This document shows, one piece after another, positions 23,716 to 32,916 of a stretch of 32,916 nt of DNA. How positions within the stretch are numbered: position 1 is the first letter of the stretch; each line of letters starts with the position of its first letter. The DNA is from Owenweeksia sp. (GTDB lineage: Bacteria > Bacteroidota > Bacteroidia > Flavobacteriales > Schleiferiaceae): the NCBI GenBank assembly GCA_028277105.1, contig JANQHO010000080.1, positions 1 to 32,916 on the forward strand, written 5' to 3'. Position numbers and translations under genes: made by a program. Under the pieces are notes generated by a model, which was given only the letters and a program-made list of their open reading frames with translations, ran no database searches and was not told the origin of the DNA.

Positions 23716-24489
23716 ATGCAGATATTCAAATCCCTATTGTTCCTCTCAGCAGCTTCGTTGGTACTGGCTTCATGTAATAAGGACGACAACGATAATAATA
23801 ATGATGATAACAACGATCTGAAAGCTTCAGTAAAAATAGAGCTGTCCCATAACTTTGAAGGTGAAAGCTTTGAACTCGATAAATATTACACTCTTGGTAA
23901 TGGATCAAAAGTTAAGTTTACCACCGCCCAGTTTTATTTGAGCAATGTAGCTTTTATGGATGATGCAGATAATCGTACAAAGCTTGAGCCTCAATTTACT
24001 TTTGTAGAAAGTACTACTTCCGAGATTGATCTGGGAGAGGTTGATGCCGGGCATATGCATATGCTGATGTTGAATTTAGGAGTAGATGAAAAAACCAATA
24101 CTACTGTTCTGCCCACAGATTTTGAAGATTTGAACGCTCCTCTCGCTCCGAAAACCAATAGTATGCACTGGAGCTGGAATTCAGGCTACATATTTTACAA
24201 GTTTGAGGGGGACGTTGACACAGACGGTGACGGTACGGACGATGACAGTTTTAAATATCACATTGGATTGAATGATAACCTGATCACAAAAAGCAAAATG
24301 GCCCATACTGATCTGGAAGCAGGCAAGTCTACCGACATAATGGTAAAAGTTGATTACGCAAAAATATTCAGCGGTCTCGATCTTTCTACCGAGTTGATCA
24401 CCATGACGATGAACAACCCCGAACTGGCGACCAAGATCAAAACTAATTTTGAAGCAGCCGTTGAGATTGAAACACACGATCACAACTAA
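23716..24489 (+). CDS. MbnP-like copper-binding lipoprotein (copy 1)
   Basis: 257 residues. The lipoprotein signal ends LVLASC (Cys20) and is followed at once by NKDDNDNNNDDNND, an acidic run like the Bacteroidota surface-lipoprotein export signal. The MbnP family domain (about 36-250) shows FTTAQFYLSNVAF, the early HMHML (113-117) and the hallmark MHWSWNSGYIFYKFEG (150-165), holding the Trp pair. In methanotroph MbnP a Trp is oxidised to kynurenine by the partner MbnH, creating a copper site. After the hallmark is DTDGDGTDDD (168-177), like a calcium-binding loop. The last residues are ETHDHN, a possible extra metal ligand. The MbnH-like peroxidase starts 18 bp downstream. The family call is strong; copper binding here is inferred. 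Confidence 0.88.
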   Translation: MQIFKSLLFLSAASLVLASCNKDDNDNNNDDNNDLKASVKIELSHNFEGESFELDKYYTLGNGSKVKFTTAQFYLSNVAFMDDADNRTKLEPQFTFVESTTSEIDLGEVDAGHMHMLMLNLGVDEKTNTTVLPTDFEDLNAPLAPKTNSMHWSWNSGYIFYKFEGDVDTDGDGTDDDSFKYHIGLNDNLITKSKMAHTDLEAGKSTDIMVKVDYAKIFSGLDLSTELITMTMNNPELATKIKTNFEAAVEIETHDHN

Positions 24490-24507
24490 GAAGGTGGTAT
24501 AAATAAA

Positions 24508-25536
24508 TTGAAAAAGAATATTACAAACCCGGTATTGGTGATAGGCCTTACCGGGTTTCTTTTTACAGCTGTATTTTCCTGCCGTCAGGTAGGAAAACCA
24601 GCAGCAACAGAAATAAAAACAGACCTGCCGGATTACTTTCCTTCTTTACCTATCCCTGGAGATAATCCCCTGACAAGCGGTAAAATTGCCCTGGGCAAAA
24701 AGCTTTTTTTCGATCCCGTCCTGAGCCGCCACCGCGATCTTTCCTGTGCTTCCTGTCATCTTCCCCATCTTGCCTTTACCGATGGTCAGGTAAAAAGCAT
24801 AAATGTAGGTGGTGTGCCTACCTTGCGAAATTCACCTTCTTTATTTAATGTAGCCTATCATCCCTACTATTTTATGGATGGGGGAAATCCTACCCTGGAA
24901 AGCCAGTTGATCTCTCCGATAGAAAACCCCCTGGAGATGGACCTGCCCTTTCCGGAGGCTATAGCCAGGGTGGCAGCCGATCCGGAATACATTCGTCTTT
25001 TTAAAGAAGTATTTGAGGCCAAGGTTTCTGCCTACACCCTTTCGCGAGCTATAGCGGCTTACGAGCGCAGTTTGTTGAGTTATAGCAGTTCTTTTGATCG
25101 TTTTTATTACCAGGGTGATGATGAGGCTATATCAGCTGATGCCAAAGCGGGATATAAGCTCTTCAGCAGTGAGAAGCTGGCTTGTAACTCCTGCCACAAA
25201 GGGGTACTTTTTACCGATTTTAAATTCAGGCATAACGGTTTAAAGGAAGATTACAGTAAAGACCCCGGCCGGGGGCGTATCACTCTGAAAAAGGAAGACG
25301 AAGGTAAATTTAAAACCCCCTCTTTGCGCAACGTGGCCCTTACGGCTCCTTTTATGCACGATGGCAGTCTGAAAAACCTGGAGGAAGTCATACGGCATTA
25401 CGCAGCAGGAGGTAAGCAACACTTTAATAAAGACAGCCTGATCATGGGCTTTGAAATCACAGAAAAAGAGCAAAGGCAATTGATAGCGTTTTTAAACAGC
25501 CTTACGGATACTAATTCCTATAAACTTCATCAGTAA
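24508..25536 (+). CDS. MbnH/MauG-type dihaem cytochrome c peroxidase lipoprotein (copy 1)
   Basis: 342 residues from a TTG start. No ATG or GTG lies between the in-frame stop at 24487-24489 and the signal sequence, and AAGGTGG sits 11 bp upstream. The lipoprotein signal has Cys25 (TAVFSC) with no acidic export signal after it. It is a bacterial CcP/MauG superfamily enzyme with two haem-c sites, CASCH (80-84) and CNSCH (226-230). Typical landmarks: ALGKKLFFDPVLS, PTLRNSPSLFNVAYHP, DGGNPTLESQLISPIENPLEM, KFKTPSLRNVALTAPFMHDGS. The residue between the haems, usually Trp in an FWDG motif, is Met123 (FMDGG). Coupled to MbnP (18-bp gap), it is the predicted tryptophan-oxidising maturase rather than a plain peroxide scavenger. 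The latter remains possible. Confidence 0.9.
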   Translation: MKKNITNPVLVIGLTGFLFTAVFSCRQVGKPAATEIKTDLPDYFPSLPIPGDNPLTSGKIALGKKLFFDPVLSRHRDLSCASCHLPHLAFTDGQVKSINVGGVPTLRNSPSLFNVAYHPYYFMDGGNPTLESQLISPIENPLEMDLPFPEAIARVAADPEYIRLFKEVFEAKVSAYTLSRAIAAYERSLLSYSSSFDRFYYQGDDEAISADAKAGYKLFSSEKLACNSCHKGVLFTDFKFRHNGLKEDYSKDPGRGRITLKKEDEGKFKTPSLRNVALTAPFMHDGSLKNLEEVIRHYAAGGKQHFNKDSLIMGFEITEKEQRQLIAFLNSLTDTNSYKLHQ

Positions 25537-25569
25537 TAAATGTGAAGATTTGTATAAATACTTCCAGGC

Positions 25570-26796
25570 ATGAAAAGGATTGTTCTACTGTTTCTCGGAG
25601 CAACATTCTATAGTTTACAGGGCCAAAACCTGCAATGGGTTGCCGAAGCCAATCCTATCAGCCTTCAAACCAATGGCGTGGGCTATTCCGCAGATGGAAG
25701 CAAAGTAGTAAGCGGCACCAACTGCCATCCCGCTAATGTGAGGTTGTTTGATACCGGTTCTGGGACCTTGCTCTGGGATTATGAGGTACCCTCTTCTTTG
25801 TTTTGTGTGATGGGGGTAGGGATAAGTTCCAACGGGAAATACCTGGCTGCCATTGAGGAGTTTGGCAATTTGCTCATTTTTGATTATTCCACCAATCCTC
25901 CGGATTCGATCACTGCCATAAATATAGGCTCACCCTATGCTTTTTCCCTGGCTTTTTCTCCCGACTCTAAAAAGCTCATAGTTGGTGGTTCAGGCGGTAA
26001 AATGATCATTTGTGATGTAGTTAATGGTAAGGTACTCAATACTATTAATGCCCACGCCAGCTGGGTTACCACAGTGGCTTATGATCCCAATGGAGATTTT
26101 ATAGTTACCGGTGGAAACGACAGCCGGATAAACATATGGGATACTACACGTACTCTCTTGCATACTTTAACGGGCCACATTGCCTATATTACAAAAGTGG
26201 TGATAAGTGCCGATGGTAAAAAGATCTACAGCTCCTCTAAGGATAAGACTATAAAGAAATGGGACGTTGAAAGTGGTAGTCTCGAGACTTCCCGGGTAGT
26301 TTCGCCTGATGAGGTCAATGCCCTGGACGTTTCTGCCAACCAGCATTACATCGTTACGACTTCCAACGACAATTTAATAAGCCTCTTTAACAGTGCCGAT
26401 CTTTCACCGATAAACAGTTTCCCTAACGATACAGCCGGTGCGGGTATTAGCATTGCTTGTTCTCCTGTAAGCAACCAGATAGTAGTGGGAACTTTGTTGG
26501 GGAGAGTCGTAGCTTATTCACTGACCCCTCTTGTTTCTGTCAGTGAGCCGTTCAATCAAAAAACGAAGATTTTCCCCAATCCTTTTGTCACATCGCTCCG
26601 GTTAGAAGGCCTGGATGATAAAGCCAGTAAGCTTAAAATATTTGATTGGACAGGAAGGGAAGTACATAGCTTTGAAATATCAGAATCAGCAATGGGCCTC
26701 GATCTCAGGCATTTGAGTGCGGGAACTTATCTTATGACACTTTACGATGAAAAAGAAAGACCTCTTCAAAGCCAGAAGATCATTAAAGCTGAATAA
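25570..26796 (+). CDS. T9SS-secreted WD40-repeat protein
   Basis: 408 residues. The signal peptide (MKRIVLLFLGATFYSLQGQ) is followed by about seven WD40-like units (about 20-325). The clearest are LAFSPDSKKLIVGGSGGKMIICDVVNG, VAYDPNGDFIVTGGNDSRINIWDTT and VVISADGKKIYSSSKDKTIKKWDVESG (shown in part; motif G-H...DG...S..D..I..WD). The T9SS type A domain begins at about residue 336 (TKIFPNPFVT) and ends GTYLMTLYD...SQKIIKAE. Extracellular WD40 proteins are typical of Bacteroidota, acting as rigid binding platforms. It follows the MbnH-like gene by 33 bp and is probably in the same transcript, so a surface partner for the copper system is conceivable. No catalytic motif. Confidence 0.87.
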   Translation: MKRIVLLFLGATFYSLQGQNLQWVAEANPISLQTNGVGYSADGSKVVSGTNCHPANVRLFDTGSGTLLWDYEVPSSLFCVMGVGISSNGKYLAAIEEFGNLLIFDYSTNPPDSITAINIGSPYAFSLAFSPDSKKLIVGGSGGKMIICDVVNGKVLNTINAHASWVTTVAYDPNGDFIVTGGNDSRINIWDTTRTLLHTLTGHIAYITKVVISADGKKIYSSSKDKTIKKWDVESGSLETSRVVSPDEVNALDVSANQHYIVTTSNDNLISLFNSADLSPINSFPNDTAGAGISIACSPVSNQIVVGTLLGRVVAYSLTPLVSVSEPFNQKTKIFPNPFVTSLRLEGLDDKASKLKIFDWTGREVHSFEISESAMGLDLRHLSAGTYLMTLYDEKERPLQSQKIIKAE

Positions 26797-26810
26797 AGAA
26801 GATTCAGCAG

Positions 26811-26820
26811 TATATTTGCA
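26811..26820 (+). promoter_or_regulatory. Bacteroidota -7 box before the small Cys-motif gene
   Basis: TATATTTGCA is a perfect TAnnTTTG box with the frequent CA extension. It ends 8 nt before the ATG at 26829, so the transcript would have a very short leader. No clear -33 TTG is seen. It implies that the small gene can be expressed separately from the upstream operon. Confidence 0.5.
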
Positions 26821-26828
26821 GGGATAGG

Positions 26829-27218
26829 ATGTTAATAAGAAAGATAATACCGGTCTTTTTATGTGCTGTACTGATTTTTCCTTTGGGAATGAAAGTAAGT
26901 ATTACAGCTAACTTCCTTATTAACCAGGATTTTATAGCGGCTAATCTATGTGAAAACCGCGATAAACCAGAGCTGCATTGCAACGGTAAGTGTGTGTTAA
27001 TGCAAAAGCTGAACCTAAGCGAAGATAAGAGCCGGGAACCCGTTCGCATACCGGAGATGTTGCGTTTTGAAATATCCAGTTTTCTATATTCTGATTATCA
27101 GTTTAATCTGTCTTTGATCTCAGGGGAGAGTTTTACATCTGTTTTGCCATATTCGGATCGCTTTGTAAAAAGAATTTATCCTCACGACATTTTTCACCCT
27201 CCCCGTTTAGTCGTTTGA
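26829..27218 (+). CDS. Small membrane-anchored protein with C-x9-C-x3-C motif, unknown function
   Basis: 129 residues. One N-terminal membrane helix (about 5-20, possibly an uncleaved signal) is followed by LCENRDKPELHCNGKCVLMQKL, with Cys41, His50, Cys51 and Cys55. The tail (about 75-129) is aromatic, with DRFVKRIYPHDIFHPPRLV. From memory this Cys-motif type recurs in Bacteroidota next to metal-related TonB loci but has no assigned function. The Cys/His cluster could bind Cu(I) or Fe, or act as a thiol redox centre. It lies between two MbnP-MbnH pairs, 32 bp after the WD40 gene and 108 bp before the second MbnP, and has its own promoter box. A role in metal sensing or delivery is inference. 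Confidence 0.78.
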   Translation: MLIRKIIPVFLCAVLIFPLGMKVSITANFLINQDFIAANLCENRDKPELHCNGKCVLMQKLNLSEDKSREPVRIPEMLRFEISSFLYSDYQFNLSLISGESFTSVLPYSDRFVKRIYPHDIFHPPRLVV

Positions 27219-27236
27219 ATTATCAATTCATTTTTT
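27216..27236 (+). terminator. Weak terminator overlapping the small gene's stop codon
   Basis: 6-bp AT-rich stem TGAATT / AATTCA with an ATC loop and a following T6 run. The stem includes the TGA stop codon. Low stability; partial termination at best. Confidence 0.35.
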
Positions 27237-27326
27237 AGTAGCTCAAACAGAGCGCAAGATCCTGTAAAGGATTATTGTGGCTTTACGCCATACTCAAACA
27301 TTAAAAACAATATTAAAATTACCGTA

Positions 27327-28214
27327 ATGAAAAAGCTTAAAAATATTGGTTGGGCTTTATTTGCCTTTACCACCCTAACCCTTATGTCATGTAGTAAAGA
27401 CGATGACAATGATTCCAATAACGACAATAATAAAAAGAGGGGAACCCTGGCCGTGCGTTTTGATAACGTGGTAGGTTCAGAAGACATGCAATTGGATTCA
27501 GCCGGCCATAATCACTATCACTATACCAATTCCAATGGTCAAACTTTTGGTTTGTCCCTTTTCGGTTATTATGTAAGTAAAATAAGGCTTACCGGGCCTG
27601 ATGGTGCAGTGTTTGAGGACGAAATGAATGTCAGTCCCAATCCCGATGAAGTTAAGGGCTACTACCAGGTACTGGAAAGTGAAACCTCATCACAGATCAT
27701 AAGTTTGCAGAACATTCCTACCGGGACGTACGACAATATCTCTTTTATTATCGGTGTTGAAGAAGACGGAGTACAGGAAGGAGCAGCCGGTGGTGTACTG
27801 GATCCGGCTAATGGGGCCTGGTTCTGGAATTGGAATGCCGGTTACATCGGCATAGCCATGGAGGGTAATGCCCCCGACTCACCCCAGGAATTTGTTGATT
27901 GGGGTGGAGGTTTTGTTACTCACGCCAATACATTTGCCATTCACGTAGGTGGCTGGAAAGATCTTCCGGCTGACTCTAACGGAGTACAGAATTTTGTGAA
28001 TAATATCCGGACCATTGATCTCGATTTTACTTCACCTCTAAAGGTAGAGGAGGGTTTGAATCCCAGATTACACCTTAAGGTAGATGCCCTGGAATGGATG
28101 AAGGCCTCCAATCTGGATTTTGCCACAACGTATTCCGTGCATTCTCCCGGTGCAGGTAAAGCGTTTGCCGACCAGATGAACAGAATATTCAGTGTAGACC
28201 ATGTTCATCAATAG
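27327..28214 (+). CDS. MbnP-like copper-binding lipoprotein (copy 2, divergent)
   Basis: 295 residues. Lipoprotein signal TLMSC (Cys22) followed by SKDDDNDSNNDNN, again like the surface export signal. The domain begins RGTLAVRFDNVVG and includes an unusual HNHYHY patch (His61, His63, His65). FGLSLFGYYVSKIRLTG matches the FxTxxxYLSNIxL strand of the family. The hallmark is NGAWFWNWNAGYIGIAMEG, with three Trp (165, 167, 169) in place of the HWSW of copy 1. The last residues are VDHVHQ. It is about 40 residues longer than copy 1 and only weakly similar outside the hallmark. Its 3' end overlaps the second MbnH-like gene by 14 bp, so the two are translated together. It is probably a metal-binding surface lipoprotein; a metal other than copper cannot be ruled out. 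Confidence 0.85.
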   Translation: MKKLKNIGWALFAFTTLTLMSCSKDDDNDSNNDNNKKRGTLAVRFDNVVGSEDMQLDSAGHNHYHYTNSNGQTFGLSLFGYYVSKIRLTGPDGAVFEDEMNVSPNPDEVKGYYQVLESETSSQIISLQNIPTGTYDNISFIIGVEEDGVQEGAAGGVLDPANGAWFWNWNAGYIGIAMEGNAPDSPQEFVDWGGGFVTHANTFAIHVGGWKDLPADSNGVQNFVNNIRTIDLDFTSPLKVEEGLNPRLHLKVDALEWMKASNLDFATTYSVHSPGAGKAFADQMNRIFSVDHVHQ

Positions 28215-29283
28215 GATAAATAGAGGACAGCTTATTACAGGCCTGGCATTGAGCTGGGCCTGTATCTTTGCTTTTATCTCTTGCCAAAAGAATGAAGCAG
28301 GCACGGAAATTCCACAGGATAAGACCTACACATTTCAGAGACCGGATAATTTTCCTCCTCCTACTTACACTTTTGAAAATAACCCTGTAACAGAAGAGGG
28401 TTTTAAGTTAGGGCGCAAGCTGTTTCACGATCCCATTCTTTCGAGAGACGGTTCGGTTTCCTGTAATAATTGCCATATACAGGCCGTTGCTTTTGCCGAT
28501 GCCCAACAGCATCCCTTAAGTATTGGAGTAGACAATCGCATAGGAAAACGCAATGCACCACCTCTAACTAACCTGGCTTTTATGAAAGAATTTTTCTGGG
28601 ATGGGGGAGTGACCCATCTGGATTTCACTTCTGTAAACGCAATTGAAGCCGATTTTGAACTGGATGAGAGCCTGGCCAATGTGGTCAGGAAACTAAACGG
28701 AAAGCCGGAATATCCACCTCTGTTCAAAGAAGCTTTTGGAATAGATTCCATTACCTCACCTTATCTATTACAAGCCTTGTCGCAATTTATGGTTTTGATG
28801 GTGTCATCTAATTCAAAATACGACAAATATGTAAGGGGAGAAGCAGGAGGGCAGCTCACAGCCAGAGAACTGGAAGGACGGCAGATATTTCAGTTGAAGT
28901 GTGGCAGTTGTCACTCGGGAGAATTGTTTTCTGATTTTAGCTATCGCAACAATGGTATTAATTCCGACTTCACCAACGATCTGGGAAGGGCCTTGATAAC
29001 GGAACAGGAAAGTGATAATGGTAAGTTCCGGGTACCCAGCCTGCGCAATGTGGCGCGAACCAGTCCTTATATGCACAATGCAAAATTCTGGACCCTTAAA
29101 GAAGTACTGGACCATTATGACAACGGGGTAAAAGATTCACCGACTCTTGATCCATTACTCAAGAATAATAGCAAACCGGGCATAGAACTGACCGAAGAGG
29201 AAAAGGAAAAGATCATTGATTTTCTGCAAACACTTAGTGATTTTGAGTTTATAGCAGACAGTCGTTTCTTTCAGCAAGATTAA
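28201..29283 (+). CDS. MbnH/MauG-type dihaem cytochrome c peroxidase lipoprotein (copy 2)
   Basis: 360 residues. The N-terminal helix ends AFISC (Cys28), followed by QKNEAG, not a full acidic export signal. Haem motifs are CNNCH (88-92) and CGSCH (234-238). Landmarks: FKLGRKLFHDPILS, KRNAPPLTNLAF, FFWDGGVTHLDFTSVNAIE, KFRVPSLRNVARTSPYMHNA. Unlike copy 1 it keeps the inter-haem Trp (Trp133 in FFWDGG), but the loop after it (THLDFTSVNAIEADFEL) departs from the usual LExQxxxPIxNPxEM. The ATG at 28201 lies inside the MbnP copy 2 gene (14-bp overlap), a strong sign that the two products work together. It is likely the maturase of that MbnP. A hairpin follows directly after the stop. Confidence 0.9.
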   Translation: MFINRINRGQLITGLALSWACIFAFISCQKNEAGTEIPQDKTYTFQRPDNFPPPTYTFENNPVTEEGFKLGRKLFHDPILSRDGSVSCNNCHIQAVAFADAQQHPLSIGVDNRIGKRNAPPLTNLAFMKEFFWDGGVTHLDFTSVNAIEADFELDESLANVVRKLNGKPEYPPLFKEAFGIDSITSPYLLQALSQFMVLMVSSNSKYDKYVRGEAGGQLTARELEGRQIFQLKCGSCHSGELFSDFSYRNNGINSDFTNDLGRALITEQESDNGKFRVPSLRNVARTSPYMHNAKFWTLKEVLDHYDNGVKDSPTLDPLLKNNSKPGIELTEEEKEKIIDFLQTLSDFEFIADSRFFQQD

Positions 29284-29501: not shown

Positions 29502-30467
29502 GTGAAAAAGATTCTTCTATTCAGTTTTACCCTCATCATCTCTAGCCTTTTTGCCCAAACTGGTCAGAAAAAAGAGGAGGGCTTCATTAAAGAAATGTGT
29601 GGTTGCTACAAAGTAGACTTTGAATACGCAGAAACCTTTTCTCCTGTTAAAGATTACGAATTTCACGATCGTTATTCCGCTCACGGTTTAGAGTGGATCT
29701 TTGTTGATGAGGAAGCTGATGGAAAAATTGTTATACAACACCTGTTGGTGATCAACGATTCTATCATTATAAAACACTGGCGCCAGGATTGGTTGTATGA
29801 AAATACCGACTTGTTAACATATCAACGAAATCTCGAATGGCAGAAAGATCAATTAAGCTCAACTGACGTTTCCGGTACCTGGACCCAAAAAGTTTATCAG
29901 GTAGATGATAGTCCTCGTTATCAGGGTTACGCCACCTGGGTAAATGTTGATGGTAAAAAATACTGGGAATCACAGGTGTATGCCCCGCTCCCACGCAGGG
30001 AATTCACCAAGCGCTCCGATTACAACGTTATGTTGCGCAATAATAAGCACAAGATCACCAATTTCGGTCATGTACATGAATTAGATAATGCCAAAGTGGT
30101 CCGTACTGAAGGAAAAGACAGTATCCTGGCATGGGAAAAGGGCATGAATACTTATACTAAGGTAGATGACAATAAATGCCAGCCTGCAATTAATTGGTGG
30201 AAGACCAACCGCCAGTATTGGGTAGATGTTCGTGCCACCTGGGAAGAGATTATTGCTTCCAACGATTACATCAATCTCAAGATCAAGGTAGATAACAAAA
30301 AGCTTTGGGAACATTTGTTTGCTCTCGGCAAAGAATATGCTCAGAAAGAAATATATAATTCTAAAAAGGCTAAAAAAGAGATCAAAGAAGCTATAGAGCC
30401 TTATCTTTCTCATAAACCTTCGCCCTGGACTACTGCTTCGGTAGGGAAGAAGCCTGAAGAATATTAA
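29502..30467 (+). CDS. DUF6607 family secreted protein of a haem-uptake locus
   Basis: 321 residues from a GTG start; no ATG fits the signal peptide MKKILLFSFTLIISSLFAQ, and stops occur upstream. The sequence matches what I know as DUF6607: EMCGCYKVDFEYAETFSP, YEFHDRYSAHGLEWIFVDEE, IIIKHWRQDWLYENTDLLTY, GTWTQKVYQVDDSPRYQGYA, APLPRREFTKRSDYNVMLR. The last third (about 240-321) is helical and highly charged. The CGC pair at about 30-32 is at the N-terminus of the mature chain. Members commonly lie next to HmuY and TonB receptors, as here: the HmuY-like gene starts 29 bp downstream. Probably periplasmic or outer-membrane associated; the biochemical role is unknown. Confidence 0.85.
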   Translation: MKKILLFSFTLIISSLFAQTGQKKEEGFIKEMCGCYKVDFEYAETFSPVKDYEFHDRYSAHGLEWIFVDEEADGKIVIQHLLVINDSIIIKHWRQDWLYENTDLLTYQRNLEWQKDQLSSTDVSGTWTQKVYQVDDSPRYQGYATWVNVDGKKYWESQVYAPLPRREFTKRSDYNVMLRNNKHKITNFGHVHELDNAKVVRTEGKDSILAWEKGMNTYTKVDDNKCQPAINWWKTNRQYWVDVRATWEEIIASNDYINLKIKVDNKKLWEHLFALGKEYAQKEIYNSKKAKKEIKEAIEPYLSHKPSPWTTASVGKKPEEY

Positions 30468-30496
30468 TTATAATTAATCTGTAAATCAATACCCTT

Positions 30497-31747
30497 ATGA
30501 ATAGAATAATTACTACCCTGATTTTAGCCAGCTTTGTAACTATAGCCAAAGCACAGTTTTTTGATACCACCGGCATAGCCAACTGGCCTTTACTGACCAA
30601 CTCCTACGATACCTGGATGCGCGGTGCTTTTGATTCCAATCGTGACCCAAACAACCAATCTGATTATGGTTGGGGGTTTTATGATATACAGACCCACTTT
30701 ATTATGGGTGATAGTATTTATATCATCAAAACACAAGCCGGAAATTATAAGGCAATATCCGTTGATCAGTTGGCCTCTGGGGTTTATACTGTTTCTTACA
30801 GTGATCTGGATGGCAGCAATTATGTGACCAAAACCCTGGATCGTTCACCCTACGGCAGCAAGAACTTTTTCTACTATTCCATTGATCAGGATGTAGTTAA
30901 AGATTTCGAGCCGGCTACCGCTGGTTGGGATATAGTATTCACAAAATACTTGACCTTCATTCCTTTTTTTGGAGGCTACTATCCCGTAAGCGGAGCTCTC
31001 ACTAACAGAGGAGTAGAGGTTTCACAGGTTGAGTTCAATCCCGGAGGTTCTTATTCCGTAAATGACACGGTGAACTTTCCTATGAGCGATAACATCTCTA
31101 CTATTGGCTACGACTGGAAAGATGCCGGACCGGTTGGTATTGTTATTTACGATACTCTGGTTTATTACGTAAAAGACCAGAACGGTAACGTCAATGAATT
31201 GAAATTCACTGATTATAGTGGTTCTGCTACCGGAAAAATGGTATTCGAGGTAAATGGCCAGCCTGATTCTATAGTACTGGATTCGGGAAATGTTAGCCAG
31301 GTTTATTATTCTCTCCAGGCCGGTACAGAAATAATTAAAAATCAAGATAATGCCTGGGATGTTGCCCTTTTAGCCCAGGCTAGCTTCAGCGCTATTCCCG
31401 TTAGAATCAATGATGCGAACGGAGTGGAGCTTTACGTATATCCCAATGCCGATATAACTCAATGGAACAGTATAGGAATAGAAGAAAATACCGTAGATGT
31501 AGTATCCATTTACCCGAATCCGGCTAGTGATTTTATCAATATTGCTCTAAGGGCAGATATGAGAAATAATGTAACTGCTTCTCTCATCAACCAAAGCGGG
31601 CAAATTGTAAAAACAGAAGAAATATCCTTTGATTTAGGACTATCCGAAGCTTCCATGAGCCTTGATAATGTTGTACCGGGAGTTTATCTCTTGCAGCTTA
31701 GCAATTCAGAAATTAATGCTATCAGCAGAATAATTGTTACTCCCTGA
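30497..31747 (+). CDS. HmuY-like haem-binding protein with T9SS sorting domain
   Basis: 416 residues. The signal peptide is MNRIITTLILASFVTIAKAQ, of type I rather than a lipoprotein signal. The HmuY-family domain (about 85-320) is recognised by KNFFYYSIDQDVV, GWDIVFTKYLTF, VSGALTNRGVEVSQVEF, then VYYSLQAGTEIIKNQDNAWDVALL. HmuY proteins capture haem outside the cell and pass it to a TonB receptor. In Porphyromonas HmuY is a lipoprotein of about 216 residues; here the chain is twice as long and ends in a T9SS type A domain (about 336-416, VSIYPNPASDFINI ... VPGVYLLQLSN). It should thus be secreted or anchored by T9SS. Haem ligands cannot be assigned with confidence. It sits between DUF6607 and a TonB receptor, as expected for haem uptake. 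Confidence 0.82.
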   Translation: MNRIITTLILASFVTIAKAQFFDTTGIANWPLLTNSYDTWMRGAFDSNRDPNNQSDYGWGFYDIQTHFIMGDSIYIIKTQAGNYKAISVDQLASGVYTVSYSDLDGSNYVTKTLDRSPYGSKNFFYYSIDQDVVKDFEPATAGWDIVFTKYLTFIPFFGGYYPVSGALTNRGVEVSQVEFNPGGSYSVNDTVNFPMSDNISTIGYDWKDAGPVGIVIYDTLVYYVKDQNGNVNELKFTDYSGSATGKMVFEVNGQPDSIVLDSGNVSQVYYSLQAGTEIIKNQDNAWDVALLAQASFSAIPVRINDANGVELYVYPNADITQWNSIGIEENTVDVVSIYPNPASDFINIALRADMRNNVTASLINQSGQIVKTEEISFDLGLSEASMSLDNVVPGVYLLQLSNSEINAISRIIVTP

Positions 31748-31797
31748 AAATTTTTCAATTGATTATAGAGATATATTGATTGGGATTTAAGTCAGTT

Positions 31798-31830
31798 ACA
31801 AGCAGGATGAATTAATCCTGCTTGTGTTTT
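31798..31830 (+). terminator. Strong rho-independent terminator after the HmuY-like gene
   Basis: 11-bp perfect stem ACAAGCAGGAT / ATCCTGCTTGT with a GAATTA loop, then GTTTTT. It ends only 9 bp before the receptor ATG at 31839, so it may act as an attenuator that lowers receptor expression relative to the HmuY-like protein. Confidence 0.85.
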
Positions 31831-31838
31831 TATTATCT

Positions 31839-32916
31839 ATGAAACAGTGTGCCTTCATATTAATACTTTCTTTACCTCTCTTAGGCATTGCCCAGAAAAC
31901 GATCAGGGTAGAAGTAAAAGATCAGCATACCGATCTACCAATAGCTGGAGCCCACCTCAGTATGTTTAGTGGTAATGACACACTTAAAGGAACCACCAGT
32001 CCTACCGGGAAAGCAGTTTTTAAAAACATTGAAAAAGGAAAGATACTCGTAACCCACATTTCTTATTTACCCGTTACCGTAGCGGTTAGGCCTTCCTCAT
32101 CCAAAACAACCATTTATATGACGCCCAGCCGGGAAAATTTGGATGAGGTAGTGGTAACCGGACAAGCCAGGCCTATATTGGCCAGTAAGGCTATCAGGCA
32201 GATCAGGGTTATTGACCAGGCGCGTATAGAGCAACAAGCTGCTGTCAATTTACGGGACTTGCTCACTAATGATCTGAACTTTCAGGTAAGTGAAGATGCT
32301 ATACTGGGCTCCCAGATCAGCCTACAGGGGTTGAGTAGCGCAAAAGTCAAGGTATTGATAGACGGAGTACCGGTAATCGGTCGTCTGGATGGCAATATTG
32401 ATCTCAGCCAGATCAACCTGAACGACATTGAAAGGGTAGAGATCGTGGAAGGCCCTATGTCGGTACAATACGGAACCGATGCCGTGGCGGGTACTATAAA
32501 TCTGATCTCCAAACGCAAAGCCACTTCCAAGCCAGAAGTAGGCTTAAATTCTTATTACGAAAGTGTGGGACGCTATAATTTTGACGGTACGATCGATTTC
32601 CCATTGGGTGAATTCAAAAGCCATATTTCCCTGGGCCGTAACTTTTTTGGTGGTTTTAACCCCTCGGAAGAAAGCCGTTCCATGCTATGGAACCCCAAGC
32701 TGCAATATTTCTCATCCTTTAGCCTGCAAAGGCGTTTCAATAAACTGATGCTGCGTTACCGCGGAGATTTTTTCGATGAAGAGATCCGCAACTTGGGGCC
32801 GGTTGAACGGATAACGGAAGAGCAGGGCGATAGCAATATATCCCAGGCCGTAGCACGTGATGATTATTATTACACCAGACGGTTTAATAACGCTCTTTAT
32901 GGGGATTTTTATCCTA
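31839..32916 (+). CDS. TonB-dependent outer-membrane receptor (HmuR-like), partial
   Basis: Runs off the right edge after 359 codons with no stop. The signal peptide MKQCAFILILSLPLLGIAQ is followed by a carboxypeptidase-regulatory-like domain (about 22-90: VEVKDQHTDLPIAGAHLSMF ... GKAVFKNIEKG). The Ton-box-like DEVVVTG is at 102-108. The plug domain (about 115-230) carries VNLRDLLTNDLNF, ISLQGLSSAKVKVLIDGVPV, INLNDIERVEIVEGPMSVQYG and GTINLISKR. The first barrel strands follow. Full receptors of this kind are about 700-800 residues. The context (DUF6607 and HmuY-like genes directly upstream) points to haem uptake; the nearby MbnP-MbnH pairs make a copper-chelate substrate an alternative. The start at 31839 is set by the signal peptide and lies just behind the terminator. 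Confidence 0.93.
   Translation, partial: MKQCAFILILSLPLLGIAQKTIRVEVKDQHTDLPIAGAHLSMFSGNDTLKGTTSPTGKAVFKNIEKGKILVTHISYLPVTVAVRPSSSKTTIYMTPSRENLDEVVVTGQARPILASKAIRQIRVIDQARIEQQAAVNLRDLLTNDLNFQVSEDAILGSQISLQGLSSAKVKVLIDGVPVIGRLDGNIDLSQINLNDIERVEIVEGPMSVQYGTDAVAGTINLISKRKATSKPEVGLNSYYESVGRYNFDGTIDFPLGEFKSHISLGRNFFGGFNPSEESRSMLWNPKLQYFSSFSLQRRFNKLMLRYRGDFFDEEIRNLGPVERITEEQGDSNISQAVARDDYYYTRRFNNALYGDFYP

Follow-up and report, generated by a model that had tools for sequence, protein, structure and literature searches.

The closest described counterpart of the locus analysed here is the MbnP-MbnH pair of Methylosinus trichosporium OB3b (7L6G, 6E1C; the "metallo-mystery pair", GenProp0940). Our locus lies in Owenweeksia sp. 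(Bacteroidota, Flavobacteriales, Schleiferiaceae) on contig JANQHO010000080.1 of assembly GCA_028277105.1, positions 1 to 32,916 of which are referred to below as the window. It comprises two MbnP-MbnH pairs (MbnP1-MbnH1 and MbnP2-MbnH2), the second of which is preceded by a small open reading frame (ORF) that we call CNG. The window pairs resemble the OB3b pair in gene order, in the coupling of the two genes, in the MbnP fold, in a later His, in a Tyr at a ligand position of the enzyme and, in the case of MbnP1 only, in the M-x-W-x-W motif. They differ from it in that no methanobactin genes accompany them, their products are lipoproteins without the four-Cys motif and score under the equivalog cut-offs, MbnP2 lacks the Met, and MbnH1 lacks the Trp located between the haems. 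Multiple MbnP-MbnH pairs outside methanobactin operons have already been published (PMC3621798). The MopE/SACCP and CorA/CorB systems of methanotrophs (PMC3912023) are alike in combining a surface copper protein that has a kynurenine site with an adjoining di-haem enzyme, and for CorA/CorB it was proposed that a periplasmic enzyme matures a surface-destined protein (PMC3912023).

The small ORF has counterparts of another kind. CruR of Bordetella pertussis is a small exported ORF in which a CxxC motif is followed at a fixed distance by a terminal RAPP; the binding of copper to CxxC relieves arrest and leads to Rho-dependent termination, and CruR homologues head copper operons, those with MbnPH-like genes included (PMC9426467). 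The regulation by CutF of Rhodobacter is of the opposite sign to that of CruR, and 40% (normalised) of a CutF-like list, which is divided into 29 clusters, comes from Bacteroidota; MbnP goes unmentioned in the main text of the CutF survey (PMC9973294). RAPP and RGPP are the forms that arrest most readily (PMC12992588).

The MbnP-MbnH pairs of the window are of a known and common type, and their arrangement as two pairs is not unique and could have been expected; of more interest are the leader ORF and the altered site of MbnP2. Our favoured reading, which we hold with moderate confidence, takes the locus to encode copper proteins: its two MbnP-MbnH pairs are independent of each other, and the ORF at the head of the second is a candidate for a copper sensor that acts as a nascent chain. 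According to this reading, each periplasmically anchored MbnH would act on its partner MbnP, converting the first WxW Trp to kynurenine, after which the mature MbnP would be displayed on the outer surface and bind copper. The expression of pair 2 would be set by the 129-residue ORF ahead of MbnP2: CxGxC would emerge into the periplasm during leader synthesis and export, at the time when the ribosome arrives at the terminal Pro-Pro, and copper on the leader cysteines may alter a presumed stall and thereby change, in one direction or the other, transcription or translation of MbnP2-MbnH2.

The Leader-like ORF

Copper-responsive control of pair 2 is suggested by the presence of a leader-like ORF before MbnP2. 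The order of small ORF, MbnP and MbnH recurs in 21 of 55 loci of relatives, and the CNG family was found in 34 of the 60 Bacteroidia genomes sampled. An alignment of 26 relatives leaves only C41, C51, G53, C55, P124 and P125 invariant. No Pfam or NCBIfam family was found for the CNG ORF, nor a convincing Pfam family for the 26 members. All 98 distinct homologues possess CxGxC, and all of them have Pro-Pro 1-13 residues before the end (at most 7 in 97 of the 98), at a distance of 66.7 +/- 2.3 residues from CxGxC, as compared to 3.7% of control ORFs with Pro-Pro equally near the end. Because the full model includes the Pro-Pro columns, the CNG model was rebuilt from the N-terminal part only, blind to the C-terminus; among its 112 new matches 111 have Pro-Pro within 17 residues of the end and one has it slightly further in, against a background of 8%. 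The 30 residues before Pro-Pro are conserved at 35% or less at every position, and the residues directly preceding it are mostly F/L-[RHPKQ]. If some 30 residues are taken up by the ribosome tunnel and about as many by the translocon, a spacing of about 67 residues would bring CxGxC just clear of the translocon at the moment when the ribosome arrives at Pro-Pro.

The element TAnnTTTG is the -7 promoter element of Bacteroidetes. It is present within 100 nt upstream of 42 of the 98 CNG genes, versus 8/154 MbnP genes, 13/153 MbnH genes and 0/65 genes of a fourth family, CDC. The median gap between CNG and MbnP is 96 nt versus 0 between MbnP and MbnH. CNG copies without MbnP head operons of several kinds. 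Some precede TonB receptor genes; in L150 CNG stands before TonB and PepSY_TM genes in the same order as in the Bordetella cruR operon, in L144:87-6035 (and likewise, by eye, in L149 and L152) before genes for a YtkA-like lipoprotein, a TonB receptor and nitrous-oxide reductase (NosZ), and in L066 before YHS and SCO1. Where an MbnP operon is not headed by CNG, an unrelated small ORF ending in Pro-Pro is carried by 11 of 64 operon heads, versus 1.9% of control genes, and several of these substitutes belong to HYC_CC_PP of NCBIfam.

The CNG ORF thus has the architecture of the CutF/CruR leaders, i.e., that of a small ORF with a Cys motif and a stop-proximal Pro-Pro at fixed spacing, standing first in a copper operon. 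It is like CruR in being exported, in the long gap that follows it and in heading TonB/PepSY_TM and MbnPH-like operons; it is unlike CruR in having CxGxC and a third Cys where CruR has CxxC, a spacing of 67 (45 in CruR), mostly [RHPKQ]PP in place of RAPP, and no DUF2946 match. The window ORF also passes the filters behind the CutF-like collection (PMC9973294). Because CNG is not DUF2946, we would describe it as CutF/CruR-like by architecture, not by family, and leave the sign of regulation unassigned. HYC_CC_PP (NCBIfam NF047658) is likewise a Cys-rich small ORF with a C-terminal Pro-Pro that heads another MbnP-enzyme lineage, with a cysteine pattern different from that of CNG and a model that does not match the window ORF.

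Several small ORFs of related appearance were noticed along the way. The ORF at L221:4569-4946, which stands where a leader would be in front of the closest relative of pair 2, no longer has CxGxC, keeps a terminal FRPP, and is possibly a degenerate or re-purposed leader. Small ORFs that contain His and Cys and have RGPP close to their end were seen in two further places: the one at L215:6809-7228 (Rhodothermales) lies upstream of MbnP, and the one in L238 (Bacteroidia) upstream of a TonB-receptor-like ORF; the latter small ORF is DUF2946 and obtained no significant score against the CNG model, and homology of the CNG leader to DUF2946 was rejected as a candidate. The fourth gene family encodes proteins of about 300 aa, barrel-like and without a Pfam family, with CDxCGC after the signal peptide. 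At L133:5149-6021, L048:4616-5542, L198:11828-12736 and elsewhere it occurs in linkage with either the leader ORF or an MbnP-MbnH pair; the window does not contain it, and contig C84 of the same genome carries a leader, a CDxCGC gene and a gene for a DUF4625 lipoprotein. The record of L163 (CATLPG010000011.1) is titled Saccharospirillaceae, and its genome groups with Bacteroidia and is probably mislabelled.

The MbnP Proteins

The preliminary description of two Trp-rich MbnP-like lipoproteins, each coupled to a di-haem lipoprotein, was borne out: the ORFs are open at the coordinates of Table 1 and contain the motifs listed there, and a lipobox Cys is present in all four proteins. The ORF coordinates place a gap of 18 bp between MbnP1 and MbnH1 and an overlap of 14 bp between MbnP2 and MbnH2. 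Both lipoproteins pass PF20243 (cut-off 27). Structure prediction, suggested earlier for each MbnP with its enzyme, gave the crystal MbnP fold of M. trichosporium for both MbnPs. The AlphaFold models (predicted local distance difference test scores of 84.7 and 89.0; Foldseek was also used) match 7L6G with Z 16.8 and a root-mean-square deviation of 3.2 over 204 residues for MbnP1 (next-best Z 5.8) and with Z 16.6 and 3.6 over 220 residues for MbnP2 (next-best Z 5.1). A Bacteroidota MbnP profile retrieves 7L6G by sequence as well (E 1.6e-5), GMAWNW and the later His being aligned with the WxW region, and W152/W154 of MbnP1 and W167/W169 of MbnP2 align with the WNW of 7L6G.

The published MbnP site reportedly consists of one His, one Met, solvent and kynurenine derived from the first Trp of WxW. 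Of 158 relatives, 148 keep the first Trp, 143 the second, 148 the later His and 127 a Met two positions ahead of the first Trp; the conserved Met and His would presumably be the Cu(I) ligands of the crystal site. MbnP1 has all of these residues, with Met150, Trp152 and His182 as its presumed copper site. The L221 protein, which is the nearest relative of MbnP2, has Leu at the conserved-Met position.

Outer-surface export of Bacteroidetes lipoproteins is signalled by C-X-K-(D/E)2 (PMC5080379). This signal is matched by MbnP1 (C-N-K-D-D) and MbnP2 (C-S-K-D-D-D) and by neither MbnH, and across pairs the number of acidic residues after the lipobox is 2.6 for MbnP versus 1.8 for MbnH (p 2e-5). Since the export signal is present on the MbnPs and not on the MbnHs, the prediction of a periplasmic enzyme that matures a surface-bound protein fits.

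The MbnH Enzymes

The assignment of both enzymes to the MauG/CcP type is confirmed by CCP_MauG PF03150 (cut-off 25.6), and the best NCBIfam model for both is TIGR04039 MbnH. Each contains two CxxCH motifs and a Tyr (Tyr298 of MbnH1, codon 25399-25401; Tyr306 of MbnH2, codon 29116-29118) in the column where CcP 3o5c and 4aal have their Met ligand, so that the Met that is the sixth ligand of the electron-transfer haem in bacterial CcpA is absent from both. A Trp is located between the haems in MbnH2 and is replaced by Met123 in MbnH1; because this column is variable in MbnP-linked enzymes (W, A, M, L, R or K), the loss of the Trp is common in the set and is probably not a defect of MbnH1. Together with the missing Met of the M-x-W-x-W motif in MbnP2, the Met of MbnH1 versus the Trp of MbnH2 is a sequence hint that the two pairs differ.

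A same-strand di-haem gene lies directly downstream of 128 of the 141 WxW-bearing MbnP genes of relatives, and the pairing is thus not due to chance. When the MbnH tree is rooted on two CcPs, with MauG left out, MbnH is not separated from the other di-haem enzymes of the genome, and the tree alone is therefore no proof of MbnH function. At ten loci (L078, L079, L081, L088, L090, L092, L098, L100, L101 and L102) one MbnP of about 320 aa is followed by two different di-haem genes; one of the two enzymes has Trp in the inter-haem column and the other mostly Arg or Lys, and some of these loci are headed by HYC_CC_PP.

Lineages of the Two Pairs

MbnP is present in 50 of 60 relatives, with up to five copies per genome. 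In the phylogeny of both pairs, which had been proposed as a check, pair 1 and pair 2 fall in different deep lineages: MbnP1 and MbnH1 cluster with loci L069, L080, L094 and L095, while MbnP2 and MbnH2 cluster with a Cytophagales pair (L221) and its kin, at 39% (MbnP) and 55% (MbnH) identity to L221. MbnP2 was grouped with pairs of the host family in the first tree and with the Cytophagales pair after denser sampling, so that acquisition of pair 2 by transfer is possible, although weakly supported. The window CNG leader is closest (50%) to leaders of the host family.

Two other genomes, a Saprospiraceae metagenome-assembled genome (MAG; L182) and that of Runella sp. (L232), share the layout of an MbnP-MbnH pair followed by small ORF, MbnP and MbnH; a two-pair cluster is also present in a Cytophagales MAG (L221). 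In L182 the first pair is very divergent, and in L232 the two pairs belong to one lineage, and hence neither locus is a copy of the window combination.

Organisation of the Window

Table 1. Features of the MbnP-MbnH locus of Owenweeksia sp. (positions in the window).
Feature	Position	Strand	Remarks
MbnP1, lipoprotein, 257 aa	23716..24489	+	PF20243 120.5 bits; WSW motif; C20-N-K-D-D
MbnP1 W152-S-W154, within HWSWNSGY (residues 151-158)	24169..24177	+	W152 is the expected kynurenine site from sequence; Met150 two residues earlier
MbnH1, di-haem MauG/CcP-superfamily lipoprotein, 342 aa, TTG start	24508..25536	+	PF03150 177.8 bits
WD40 propeller with type IX secretion system (T9SS) sorting tail, between the pairs	25570..26796	+	Probably incidental
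TATATTTG, fitting the -7 element TAnnTTTG of Bacteroidetes promoters	26811..26818	+	Just 5' of the CNG leader ORF
CNG leader-like ORF, 129 aa	26829..27218	+	Hydrophobic N-terminus; C41-x9-C51-x-G-x-C55; Pro124-Pro125
CNG CxGxC (C-N-G-K-C), putative copper-sensing motif	26979..26993	+	Conservation in homologues
CNG Pro124-Pro125 codons, putative ribosome-arrest motif	27198..27203	+	F-H-P-P-R-L-V-V-stop, four residues before the end
108-nt gap, CNG leader to MbnP2	27219..27326	+	Three hairpins, z -3.0
MbnP2, lipoprotein, 295 aa	27327..28214	+	PF20243 140.3 bits; WFWNWNAGY; C22-S-K-D-D-D
MbnP2 W165-F-W167-N-W169	27819..27833	+	W167 is the expected kynurenine site from sequence; W165 at the conserved-Met position
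MbnH2, di-haem MauG/CcP-superfamily lipoprotein, 360 aa	28201..29283	+	PF03150 159.7 bits

The WD40/T9SS gene starts 33 bp after MbnH1, and no such gene was seen beside the pairs in the maps of relatives. The region 29502-32915 of the window encodes DUF6607, an HmuY-like protein that ends in a T9SS tail and, truncated where the contig stops, the first part of a TonB receptor; it is probably a haem-uptake operon adjoining the di-haem genes. Contig C55 of the same genome (L043:7517-10039) has three tandem MbnP-like genes, one with W-x-W, one with W-x-M and one without the motif, and no adjoining di-haem gene; elsewhere an enzyme gene follows such arrays. The earlier remark that no methanobactin genes lie nearby holds and, for the marker PF05114 (MbnB/TglH-type), extends genome-wide, as no match to this family was found when it was sought across the whole genome.

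Weighing the Alternatives

Several observations weigh against the reading that we favour. MbnH1 and MbnH2 score 277 and 201.5 bits with the MbnH equivalog TIGR04039, under the curated cut-off of 362.85, and the MbnPs score 48.3 and 21.8 bits with their nearest NCBIfam model, MbnP_like_WxW (the four-Cys MbnP equivalog TIGR04052), whose curated cut-off is 140; neither MbnP has the four-Cys motif of the methanotroph family, the lipobox Cys being the only one present. For these reasons the names MbnP and MbnH apply to the window genes in the broad sense of Pfam and not in that of the narrow methanotroph-type equivalogs. MbnP2 has Trp165 instead of the conserved Met (Trp167, Trp169 and His206 are retained), and since this Met two residues before the target Trp is lost, its copper site may differ. 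As for the leader, no small ORF with a Cys motif and terminal Pro-Pro precedes pair 1 in the window, while relatives of pair 1 have a leader; the Pro-Pro context of CNG is mostly not RAPP or RGPP; and DUF2946 (PF11162) gives no match at CNG genes in the window genome or in 60 relatives, even at E 1. A general stem-loop mechanism behind the leader is unsupported and was rejected, because the 34 leader gaps show no more structure than do 120 intergenic gaps from elsewhere (medians -1.47 versus -1.38, p 0.2).

The di-haem proteins could be plain periplasmic peroxidases that are linked to MbnP without oxidising its Trp. Both enzymes indeed belong to the CcP superfamily, MbnH1 has no inter-haem Trp and both remain under the MbnH equivalog cut-off; however, the Tyr in place of the Met of the two solved CcPs, the rank of MbnH as the best NCBIfam model for both and the strict coupling of di-haem genes to WxW MbnPs make this quite improbable. 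Still less credit is due to the idea that one pair was recently duplicated in tandem and that the copies then changed fast. The two pairs are adjacent, in the same order and on the same strand, yet a sister placement is rejected by the approximately unbiased (AU) test for MbnP (p 1e-8) and MbnH (p 5e-81), in agreement with the preliminary description, and each pair has closer kin in other genomes.

Two further alternatives are unlikely, although they deserve more serious consideration. One is that CNG works as an ordinary copper chaperone, anchored in the membrane and facing the periplasm, and gives Cu(I) to MbnP, its Pro-Pro being structural and causing no arrest. Three near-invariant cysteines behind a hydrophobic N-terminus, encoded within copper-protein operons, would suit a chaperone, which would occupy the same operons. 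On the other hand, conservation does not exceed 35% at any of the 30 positions before Pro-Pro, whereas the Cys motif stays about 67 +/- 2 residues away from Pro-Pro, which is always terminal; the ORF also has its own promoter motif and a long gap behind it, and unrelated small ORFs ending in Pro-Pro take its place. The other alternative, which we find doubtful to a similar extent, is that MbnP2 has changed function and has no usual Cu(I) site, binding instead another metal, or copper in a different way (through a new Met178 or Trp165), or playing another role. It is favoured by Trp165 at a position where 127 of 158 relatives keep Met, by the change of the GYIF segment to GYIG, by the long branch of MbnP2 in the tree and by the Leu of L221, its closest relative, at the same position. 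Against it, MbnP2 keeps Trp167, Trp169 and His206, MbnH2 keeps the Tyr and the inter-haem Trp, and the Met is likewise missing from 21 other WxW proteins, most of which adjoin an enzyme gene.

Concluding Remarks

Beyond this locus, we give roughly even chances to the view that CNG is an unnamed Bacteroidota family of nascent-chain copper sensors, which, through a CxGxC kept some 67 residues from a Pro-Pro close to the stop, sets the expression of kynurenine-copper proteins, copper-type TonB receptors and nitrous-oxide reductase, HYC_CC_PP and others having converged on the same design. If this is true, copper control in Bacteroidota, that of nitrous-oxide reductase included, runs via a translation-based sensor that belongs to no named family, and the 129-residue ORF with its six invariant residues would provide a direct test bed for such a leader. 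The two natural variants of the pairs, i.e., an MbnP with or without the conserved Met and an MbnH with or without the inter-haem Trp, could reveal what the Met and the Trp are needed for. If the proposed maturation and display of the MbnPs are correct, a phylum of major environmental presence carries kynurenine-type copper proteins on its cell surface.

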